A DNA stretch of 64,000 bases from assembly GCA_030145845.1 (NCBI GenBank), contig JAIXHJ010000011.1:1-64000 (forward strand), in the 5' to 3' direction. The notes beneath the pieces were generated by a model. The model saw only the letters and a list, made by a program, of their open reading frames with translations. It had not been told where the DNA came from and did not search any database. Of the stretch, positions 57,653 through 60,152 are shown piece by piece. Source of the DNA: Pseudomonadota bacterium (GTDB lineage Bacteria > Pseudomonadota > Gammaproteobacteria > Pseudomonadales > Oceanobacteraceae). The first letter of the stretch is position 1. The number at the start of each line of letters is the position of its first letter. The position numbers and the translations under genes are program-made.

Positions 57653-57955
57653 TCAGGCCGTTACTACCTGCCCGCGGTAGATCCGCTGCGTCCGCGGTGA
57701 ACGCTCAGCATCATCAATCAACAGCTGGCTGCCACGGTAAACCCGGCCGATTTCCTGTGGCGCCGATGATGGTTCCTGGGTCGGCAAAAATTCTTCGATC
57801 ATCCCCAGCAGCTCACGGCTGACGCCGCTTTGCACCAGTTTACGCAGATCCTGCTCCAGGGTCTGGGAATCGAAATGAATCACACATCCCTGTTCATCTT
57901 TGGCGAGACGTTTGATCTTCTGTAACAGGGCAATGCTGTGGCGGTTGAATTCCAT
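57653..57955 (-). CDS. Hypothetical 100-residue protein
   Basis: I do not recognise it. A soluble protein with a helical N-terminal half (HSIALLQKIKRLAKDEQG, LEQDLRKLVQSGVSREL) and a C-terminal half holding two like motifs, VYRGSQLLID and IYRGQVV. GGAGA precedes the ATG, so it is likely translated. It is convergent with the FecR gene and 63 bases downstream of the glycosyltransferase in the opposite sense of reading order: both lie on the minus strand, but this gene has its own gap upstream of about 63 bases to the glycosyltransferase stop. Confidence 0.65.
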   Translation of the reverse strand: MEFNRHSIALLQKIKRLAKDEQGCVIHFDSQTLEQDLRKLVQSGVSRELLGMIEEFLPTQEPSSAPQEIGRVYRGSQLLIDDAERSPRTQRIYRGQVVTA

Positions 57956-58018
57956 CTGTCTTCTCCGGCTGTTGTTGAGAACTGTCTCTTACGACCTCAA
58001 CCAGAGAAGCTGCAATGG

Positions 58019-59179
58019 TCATACCATATTATGATACTGCTCAGTAACCTTACCTTCTTTATGGATTAAATGCTCTGCTGCCAGCGCCGCAAAACGCTCG
58101 GCGATGCTTTCCCAGCTGGCACTTTCTGCCTGTACACGGGCCTGCGTTCCGGCGTGGTGCAGATCCTCAGCCAGCAGACGCTGGCAGGCCAGGATAAAGG
58201 CATCATCGCTCAGATCTTCCGCCAGCTGGCCGTTATCACCGTTACGCACATGCAGGGCAGCAGCAGCCAGAGGATACGCCACTACCGGCAGACCGCTGGC
58301 CATGGCTTCCAGAGTCACCAGACCAAACGTCTCCGTCTGACTGGGAAACAGAAACAGATCCGCCGAGGCAAAATAGCGGGCCAGCCGTTCACCGGTCTGA
58401 ACCCCGGCAAAAATAATGTCAGGATGCTCCTGCTGCAGGGATTCCCGTAATGGCCCGTCACCCACCATCACCAGACGCAGATCCGGATGCTCCTGTCGCA
58501 GCGCCTGCCAGCTGCGGATCACCAGCGGGATATTCTTTTCTGCGGCGATACGCCCGACATAGAGCGCAACCGGCGTCTGCTGGCCGGCCTGCCACGCTTC
58601 ACGCAGGGAGCCGGAACGGCGCCGTGGGTGAAACAGATGACAATCAACACCATGTGACAGCACCTCCACGTTGCGGAAGCCTGCGGTGCGCAGATCCGTG
58701 GCAATATCCGCCGCCGGGACGATGGTCATCGCCGTGCGGTTATGGAACCAGCGCAGCCAGCCCAGAGTGACGGTTTTCACCCAGCCAAGGCCATAAAAGC
58801 TGCTGTAACGGTGGAAATTGGTATGAAAGGCACTGATCACCGGCAGACCGCGCCGGCGGGCTTCACGCAGGGCTGAATAACCCAGCGGGCCTTCGGTGGC
58901 AATGTAGATCAGATCGGGCTGAAAGCTGTCCCAGACCCGGCGCAGACGACGTCCTGCCGGCAGGCCCAGCTGCAGATCAGGATACATGGGAATGCTGATA
59001 CCGCGGCACCAGACTTCTTCGTGCTCCGGCACCCAGGCAGAGCGGGGCCGTGGCCGGACAATCTGAATACGGTACTGTTGCGGGTCAAGCGCCTGCAACA
59101 TCTGCCGCAGGGAGTTGGCTACGCCATTGACATCTGGAACATAGGTTTCGGTGACAATGGCTATACGCACTGGCTTCAT
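58019..59179 (-). CDS. GT4-family glycosyltransferase
   Basis: A 386-residue retaining glycosyltransferase of family GT4 (GT-B fold). The N-terminal ETYVPDVNGVANSLR and AFHTNFHRYSSFYG and the C-terminal LYVGRIAAEKN and PSQTETFGLVTLEAMASG (the E-x7-E motif) resemble mannosyl- or glucosyl-transferases that modify diacylglycerol or lipid anchors (MgtA/PimB-like). Donor and acceptor are unknown. The ATG at 59179 has GGAG 12 bases upstream, inside a large predicted hairpin. The upstream GAF-Fis gene is on the same strand, 88 bases away. Confidence 0.88.
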   Translation of the reverse strand: MKPVRIAIVTETYVPDVNGVANSLRQMLQALDPQQYRIQIVRPRPRSAWVPEHEEVWCRGISIPMYPDLQLGLPAGRRLRRVWDSFQPDLIYIATEGPLGYSALREARRRGLPVISAFHTNFHRYSSFYGLGWVKTVTLGWLRWFHNRTAMTIVPAADIATDLRTAGFRNVEVLSHGVDCHLFHPRRRSGSLREAWQAGQQTPVALYVGRIAAEKNIPLVIRSWQALRQEHPDLRLVMVGDGPLRESLQQEHPDIIFAGVQTGERLARYFASADLFLFPSQTETFGLVTLEAMASGLPVVAYPLAAAALHVRNGDNGQLAEDLSDDAFILACQRLLAEDLHHAGTQARVQAESASWESIAERFAALAAEHLIHKEGKVTEQYHNMV

Positions 59180-59221: not shown

Positions 59222-59267
59222 TGCTCCATGACAGTATTATGAAGAACAGTCCCCTGACGGGTGGCTG

Positions 59268-59966
59268 TCAGCACTCACCCGACAGTTTTGACAGACGGTA
59301 ACGCAGCTGACGGGGGGTCAGACCCAGAACCTTGGCGGCCATGGTTTTGTTACCACTGCACTTTTCAATCGCGGCCCGGATATCACCCAATTCATCCGCC
59401 TGCACACGCTGATAAGGGCGGGCGTACAGGGTTTTGAAGTTAGGGACAACCTGCGTGGCCAGCATATGGGCAATCTGTGCACCAAAGAAGCTGATCACGG
59501 ACAGATCAAGTTCCGGCGCCCGCGCGCCACGCAGATCCATTACCATCACCGCCAGTACAGACTGACGCAGCAGCAGCGGCACCAGCAGGCAACGGTCTGC
59601 TTTGCTCAGGCCATCCGCCTGCGGGTCAAAGCGTTCCGGACGCTCGCTGCCTTCCTTGATCACCAGCCATTCACGCGACTCAAACTGGCGGCACAGGGCG
59701 TGTTGCACAGCAAAGCTGTAAACACCATTGCTGACACCCGTGGAGCAGTACTGCGCTTTGAAGCGGCTGGGGGAATCGGGCAGAGCAATGGAAACATTGC
59801 TGAGACCGGTATGTTCAGCGACCAGCAATAACAGCTGCTGGATGCTTTCTTCATCGTGATAACGGCTTTCCAGAATTTCAGTCACACTGTGCAGCCAGGC
59901 ACCCGGCATGGCAGAAGTGTTGTTGACTGGCTGACGGTAATCCTGCATTTCGGCAATTTTGTACAT
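59268..59966 (-). CDS. GAF-Fis regulator without AAA+ domain
   Basis: A 232-residue regulator: an N-terminal GAF domain (about residues 30-170; RYHDEESIQQLLLLVAEHTG, CLLVPLLLRQSVLAVMVMD) as in NifA/NorR/FhlA-type proteins, joined by a linker to a Fis-type helix-turn-helix (KTMAAKVLGLTPRQLRYRL). The sigma-54 ATPase domain that normally lies between them is missing with no trace of a frameshift. It can bind DNA but cannot itself activate sigma-54 polymerase. AGGAGG precedes the ATG at 59966; a longer frame starts upstream but overlaps the promoter. The ligand is unknown; GAF suggests a small molecule, NO or an iron centre. No Cys cluster is obvious. Confidence 0.85.
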   Translation of the reverse strand: MYKIAEMQDYRQPVNNTSAMPGAWLHSVTEILESRYHDEESIQQLLLLVAEHTGLSNVSIALPDSPSRFKAQYCSTGVSNGVYSFAVQHALCRQFESREWLVIKEGSERPERFDPQADGLSKADRCLLVPLLLRQSVLAVMVMDLRGARAPELDLSVISFFGAQIAHMLATQVVPNFKTLYARPYQRVQADELGDIRAAIEKCSGNKTMAAKVLGLTPRQLRYRLSKLSGEC

Positions 59967-59994
59967 AGGCTGTTCCTCCTGAACTCTGGCCTTC

Positions 59995-60009
59995 GCAAAG
60001 ACCGTACCA
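59995..60009 (-). promoter_or_regulatory. Sigma-54 promoter of the GAF-Fis gene
   Basis: Minus-strand TGGTACGGTCTTTGC matches TGGCACG-N4-TTGC at all but one position, with GG and GC in the -24/-12 spacing. Transcription would start near 59984, 18 bases before the ATG and just ahead of AGGAGG, an exact fit for a short leader. Confidence 0.72.
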
Positions 60010-60067
60010 TGTTCAAAAAATGCTCCGCCGCACTGGCTTCCGGGCCTGTTTTCCGTCATGAATACGA

Positions 60068-60094
60068 CAAATGGCGCAGATTATGCGCCATTTG
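60068..60094. promoter_or_regulatory. Dyad CAAATGGCGCA / TGCGCCATTTG upstream of sigma-54 promoter
   Basis: A perfect 11-bp inverted repeat with a five-base centre, about 85-110 bases upstream of the predicted start. This is where upstream activator sites of sigma-54 promoters lie. It is also 59 bases after the CBS gene stop and could fold as an RNA hairpin, but has no T tract on either strand. Confidence 0.6.
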
Positions 60095-60100
60095 TTAACA

Positions 60101-60123
60101 ATGGAACCCGCGGTATGTTCCAT
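60101..60123. promoter_or_regulatory. Second dyad ATGGAAC / GTTCCAT
   Basis: A perfect 7-bp inverted repeat with nine-base spacer, next to the previous dyad and about 117-139 bases upstream of the predicted sigma-54 start. Possible second activator site or operator. Confidence 0.4.
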
Positions 60124-60152
60124 CCGGGTGCATTTCGTCGCAGCCCGGGAAC

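Follow-up and report, generated by a model that had tools for sequence, protein, structure and literature searches.

We found in the window (the whole stretch of 64,000 nucleotides analyzed here) a regulator gene whose product joins a GAF sensor domain to a Fis-type helix-turn-helix (HTH) without the AAA+ motor of sigma-54 activators. The gene lies behind a -24/-12 promoter and a pair of NtrC-like sites, both recurring in all 35 distinct orthologs. We consider it fairly likely that the protein is a second-tier regulator of the nitrogen response, induced by NtrC and sigma-54, gated by its GAF domain, motorless, and wired in the manner of Nac.

A regulator without the AAA+ module

The gene occupies 59268-59966 on the reverse strand and encodes 232 amino acids (P0001); the assignment draws on the open reading frame, Pfam, orthologs and dN/dS. 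The most plausible start codon is at 59966, because a ribosome-binding site, AGGAGG, stands at 59975-59980 (reverse strand); AGGAGG also lies at most 22 nt from the ATG in 25/35 orthologs. The GAF domain spans approximately residues 20-172 (59451-59909, reverse strand). Its Pfam score of 19.7 bits (E 0.0013) falls below the curated cut-off of 22.4, and the assignment comes from the fold: the AlphaFold model (mean pLDDT 78, pTM 0.62) resembles solved GAF domains, many of which were matched by Foldseek, with PtsP (3ci6) ranked second. PtsP 3ci6 was also the sole GAF chain (E 0.00056) when the family profile was searched against PDB at E<=10. After a linker of about 20 residues comes the HTH (HTH_8, residues 187-229; 59280-59408, reverse strand), which scores 40.2 bits against a cut-off of 22 and is the C-terminal Fis-type HTH of bEBPs. 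It is of NifA type: the NifA model TIGR01817 matches residues 195-228, within the HTH, at 24.9 bits, far below the full-length cut-off of 528.85, and the protein is not a NifA equivalog. The string TPRQLRYRL in the HTH is invariant across 15 aligned rows.

Sigma54_activat (PF00158), the AAA+ domain with the GAFTGA motif that defines sigma-54 bEBPs, was absent from P0001 at E<=0.1. The original prediction had read the AAA+ module as missing between sensor and HTH, and this is borne out, GAF being joined directly to HTH. The Pfam matches, GAF and HTH_8, did not include the LysR family of the Nac-type architecture; nor is this a short Fis protein consisting of an HTH only, since the GAF domain is also present. 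PADLOC gave no match.

A full-length ortholog was found in 30 of 55 whole genomes searched (52-100% identity, counting the window's own copy). Every carrier belongs to the window's bacterial family, of which 34 genomes were searched; the four family genomes without the gene, all of genus g4, gave weak HTH matches only. Named carriers are records of Thalassolituus, Oceanobacter, Parathalassolituus, Bacterioplanes and Oleispira. Among 369 evenly sampled genomes of the class (E<=1e-12, with no more than 7 candidates taken from each), the only full-length match was in the window's own genome, and in nine others the match was limited to the HTH region. Five further orthologs from a scan of named genomes bring the distinct orthologs to 35, and in every one (30 aligned, five more read) GAF is joined to HTH without AAA+. 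A more distant AAA+-less homolog of 241 aa (L115) comes from an uncultured member of the Saccharospirillaceae, outside the family.

The order DUF4404 - CBS - regulator - GT4 - orf57653 is complete in 19/27 named loci. GT4 and orf57653 follow the regulator in 21/27, and are missing from the Oleispira-type loci L110-L114; the L115 homolog is still found near DUF4404, CBS and orf57653. In four of the Oleispira-type genomes (L110-L113) a hairpin and T run end the regulator gene; since GT4 is also absent there, the regulator gene is probably a single-gene unit in these genomes.

The absence of the ATPase module could mark the gene as a decayed, functionless remnant of an activator. Such decay is contradicted by dN/dS of 0.06-0.19 in 5/7 ortholog pairs (synonymous sites were saturated in the other two), by the conserved synteny and by the conserved promoter described below, and we regard it as very nearly excluded. 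Judged from these alignments, the gene is under purifying selection and belongs to a constrained family.

Run against full-length GAF-AAA-HTH proteins, the family HMM aligns in two collinear segments that skip AAA+; the GAF segment is weak and the RPYxxV-HTH segment strong. The alignment with such proteins that had been proposed as a check thus found the module cleanly absent. For this comparison 17 loci were reduced to 10 sequences (eight full-length relatives, NifA and L115), seven being dropped by a motif/ORF filter. The two-piece match was obtained in 7/8 full-length relatives, with E values of 5e-7 to 4e-4 for the GAF part in this set of 10 sequences; L135 failed (0.28). A model of the GAF part alone recovered just one of the eight (L134), plus L115, which only weakly indicates that the GAF part descends from the full-length relatives. 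These matches fit either clean domain loss or inheritance from a common GAF-HTH ancestor.

The nearest full-length relative in the window's genome, C9:147934-149601, shares 53% identity over the 47 aa of the HTH, and its GAF matches at E 0.005 in a single comparison. It is one of the NifA-like GAF-AAA-HTH activators (TIGR01817; sulfonate-transporter subgroup), which have the same GAF sensor and the same NifA-type Fis HTH preceded by RPYxxV; the regulator described here differs from them in having no AAA+ motor. The genes around C9:147934-149601 resemble sulfonate-type transporters and rhodanese, in both cases with model scores under the cut-off, and a rubredoxin model is matched at its cut-off. 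The wider locus (C9:144000-154200, L059) holds a sulfonate-type ABC transporter, the NifA-like activator, and rhodanese-like, rubredoxin/flavin reductase and acyl-CoA-dehydrogenase-like genes, most of these matches being below cut-off, and perhaps serves organic sulfur scavenging. Several relatives carry a CATTGTTGACAATG-like motif upstream, as read by eye.

Other candidates were set apart. A weak GAF match in G046 turned out triose-phosphate isomerase-like. A 176-aa HTH frame in G109 (L137/L210) resembles part of an interrupted full-length activator. The window's genome also encodes a NifA (G000:C1:168846-170435, L015) whose 685 bits exceed the model cut-off of 529, so this organism may fix nitrogen.

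A conserved sigma-54 promoter

The -24/-12 promoter, TGGTACGGTCTTTGCG, lies at 59994-60009 on the reverse strand. All 35 distinct orthologs have such an element 25-52 nt before the ATG; in each, GG and GC are in place and at least 10/12 consensus positions agree, within the limit of 70 nt from the ATG. Motif columns are 94-100% identical across the 35 orthologs except for two (74% and 83%), and most flanking columns are approximately 30-60% identical. The significance of the element derives from this conservation, because taken alone it is within chance: a consensus scan of the whole window allowing up to 2 mismatches returned 27 sites, against a mean of 38 in shuffled sequence. The near-consensus element of the original prediction is therefore confirmed, having been conserved in relatives where its loss would have spoken against it. 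A simple scan upstream of the gene found no sigma-70-like promoter. The syntenic outgroup L115 has no convincing -24/-12 element, its best candidate with GG and GC agreeing at 7/12.

Flanking genes of the same loci served as controls at a threshold of at least 9/12, copies with a start outside the match being dropped. Such elements were found for GT4 in 0/22, CBS in 2/25, DUF4404 in 0/25, FAD oxidase in 0/25 and orf60927 in 0/1, and for orf57653 in 19/21. The last of these (57653-57955, reverse strand) encodes a 100-aa protein with YRG motifs and a weak DUF4278 match (E 0.14); its own conserved -24/-12 promoter at 58011-58026 (reverse strand) agrees at 11/12 positions or better in 22/22 copies outside L115. 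Possibly this is a further sigma-54-dependent gene, driven by some other activator. A PhoB-box-like sequence, CTTCATAATACTGTCAT, precedes the GT4 glycosyltransferase gene (59228-59244, reverse strand), with CATAAAACTGTCAT-like forms in relatives as well; phosphate may control GT4 through a promoter of its own.

NtrC-like sites, dyads and the candidate activator

A protein without an AAA+ motor supports the expectation that a separate activator must fire this promoter. The idea of a full-length activator whose HTH matches that of the regulator did not hold up: such proteins are few, and NtrC is universal instead, occurring in 34/34 searched genomes of the family. A second comparable HTH (E<=0.001) was found in only 4/30 carrier genomes. 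C9:147934-149601 was likewise set aside as driver, its neighbors being transporter and rhodanese genes with sub-cut-off matches to sulfur-type models. The window's genome encodes nine strong sigma-54 AAA+ proteins; because these are 448-555 aa long and eight also match HTH_8, no stand-alone AAA+ partner was seen in this genome (about 95% complete). We propose NtrC as the candidate activator, on the basis of sites upstream of the promoter.

These form a tandem. NtrC-like site 1, TGCACCCGGATGGAACA, is at 60116-60132 and site 2, TGTTAACAAATGGCGCA, at 60084-60100, both on the reverse strand, with centers at about -141 and -109 from a transcription start inferred by placing -12 at the C of GC. The NtrC sites of E. 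coli glnA are at about -108 and -140. Both were recognized with a model trained on glnA: in 15 family genomes tandem NtrC-like sites were located ahead of glnA, 30-31 bp apart in the 14 of these promoters where the script placed a pair, and the final model comprises these 15 pairs (14 located by script, L186 corrected by hand). The final scan covered 400 bp upstream at spacings of 30-32, both settings having been chosen after seeing the data, with shuffle and random controls run at identical settings.

A tandem pair at this glnA-like spacing was computed for all 35 ortholog upstreams, each outscoring 95% of 499 random 400-mers from the same loci, with shuffle p values per sequence of 0.002-0.050; the orthologs are mutually related and so not independent. 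That of the window scores 10.4 (p=0.018), one of the lowest values, with a spacing of 32 against 30-31 in glnA. Mean pair score was highest (10.8) when the two sites were 31 bp apart, followed by 32 (5.2), 41 (4.6) and 30 (3.9). At the same threshold in the named loci, pairs preceded the regulator in 27/27, GT4 in 1/22, CBS in 2/24, DUF4404 in 1/24, FAD oxidase in 0/25, orf57653 in 3/21 and orf60927 in 0/1, copies with an uncovered start or less than 400 bp upstream being dropped. The candidate pair of L115 scores 12.0. Together with the promoter, the pair gives the regulator gene the in silico features of an NtrC-regulon member.

A first glnA model, which included some misplaced pairs, returned p=0.019 for the window, with little found in genera g2 and g3; a self-trained, badly trained model locked on to a conserved TGAACCTATAATG-like element, and its p value for the window was 0.27. 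When 260 bp were searched in g2 and g3 at p<0.05, the asymmetric model found no pair and the symmetric model one in 14 (L041). Pairs in these two genera emerged only on widening from 260 to 400 bp, which was prompted by single sites farther upstream. Canonical NtrC sites occur at 22 places in the window's genome. The 13 upstreams of P-II genes contain no NtrC site by pattern and no convincing sigma-54 promoter (best 9/12).

An activator other than NtrC could be at work, the sites being merely NtrC-like. The second site in g1 and g5-g8 usually deviates from GGTGCA, ending in GGCGCA, AGCGCA or GAGGCA, and the genome offers nine strong sigma-54 activators to choose from. Against this, the 31 bp peak is the glnA spacing, and the sigma-54-type promoter of orf57653 is rarely accompanied by pairs (the 3/21 above) or by NtrC-like single sites (2/22 at p<0.05). 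We find this reading doubtful, and retain NtrC as the candidate.

Two dyads overlap the same sites. In the first, CAAATGGCGCA-N5-TGCGCCATTTG (60068-60094), one arm coincides with the right half of NtrC-like site 2; in the second, TGGAAC-N9-GTTCCA (60102-60122), one arm coincides with that of site 1. The original prediction of two dyads where activator sites belong stands in that both are present and fall on likely activator sites, but they are not conserved as dyads: under a loose test, comparable GCGCA dyads occur in 7/35 ortholog upstreams, and exact TGGAAC/GTTCCA arms with an 8-9 base spacer in 5/35, all of the window's genus. A search for further copies of the first dyad, also suggested there, found it to be single in its own genome.

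The first dyad might be mainly a terminator of the upstream CBS gene rather than an operator, and a hairpin followed by a T run does occupy that place in 3/35 orthologs (G013, G018, G027). The terminator scan did not call the window's dyad, however, and the left arm is retained in genomes without the right arm; we consider a terminator unlikely.

The dyads had also suggested an antagonist or autorepressor, the protein sitting on its own enhancer and blocking NtrC or another activator. Beyond the overlap with both NtrC-like sites, a genus-level motif is in its favor: CAWTGTTWACAAAT embeds site 2 in 8/9 orthologs of the window's genus, and is similar to the CATTGTTGACAATG-like motif that was read by eye upstream of operons whose full-length relatives share the TPRQxRYR HTH. 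Yet this comparison was made post hoc, the motif is confined to the one genus (0/26 orthologs elsewhere), the dyads are not kept as such through the family, and the HTH differs from that of NtrC, reading TPRQLRYRLSKL where NtrC has GRNTLTRKIKEL. Antagonism at the gene's own enhancer appears improbable to us. An operator search with CATTGTNNACAATG, a type of motif read by eye from few upstreams, returned 73 sites at 1 mismatch in eight genomes of the genus, against 28 for the reversed control, none of them exact, and pointed to no target gene.

A proposed motorless second tier in the nitrogen response

Returning to induction by NtrC, we picture the following sequence of events. Under nitrogen limitation, phosphorylated NtrC would bind 60116-60132 and 60084-60100 and loop to the sigma-54 polymerase at 59994-60009, whereupon transcription would start. 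An AAA+ motor is needed to remodel the sigma-54 polymerase; because that motor is absent from the product, the product should be unable to perform this step, and its expected role is that of a simple DNA-binding protein. Its Fis-type HTH would bind operators, and the GAF domain may gate this binding via a metabolite. Nitrogen signals borne by sigma-54 could thereby reach other promoters, as they do with Nac.

The GAF ligand might, by analogy, be a metabolite of nitrogen status, a guess made because, of the solved structures, PtsP has the GAF domain closest in sequence. The GAF domain of PtsP is where glutamine and alpha-ketoglutarate are bound, according to PMC13104625. In a fuller version of the scheme, the family would be an ATPase-less lineage of sigma-54 activators, induced by NtrC, whose GAF domain reads glutamine/2-oxoglutarate, so that nitrogen is sensed twice, by NtrC and by the protein, and which in Thalassolituus may damp NtrC at its own enhancer. 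That whole combination we judge to be a long shot.

Some known regulators are instructive for the simpler scheme of an NtrC-induced, motorless regulator. CodY (8c7u), among the Foldseek matches, likewise combines a GAF sensor with a DNA-binding HTH and has no ATPase; its HTH is winged, whereas the HTH here is of the Fis type not present in CodY. Nac is a LysR protein, unlike the GAF-Fis regulator described here. In enteric bacteria its gene is likewise a regulator gene under NtrC and sigma-54, an arrangement read here from sequence only, and for our protein the adapter role is a proposal. PMC4066584 has Nac activated by NtrC and lists it as an adapter for sigma-70 genes. Precedent for NtrC-family proteins at sigma-70 promoters is given in PMC10274813, which treats bEBPs without GAFTGA (the NtrC of Caulobacter and Rhodobacter, and VspR); these too derive from the NtrC family and, as presented there, cannot drive the sigma-54 polymerase. 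The Caulobacter and Rhodobacter NtrC have lost only the GAFTGA loop region according to the same paper, whereas the regulator here lacks the entire AAA+ domain.

The top matches in the open-access literature contained no description of this protein. If the proposal is true, an ATP-driven activator would have been turned into a plain DNA-binding regulator, and bacteria would have a second design, unrelated to the LysR-type Nac, by which the nitrogen signal of sigma-54 is passed on. The gene is a candidate NtrC target in the marine Thalassolituus/Oleispira group, which includes oil degraders.
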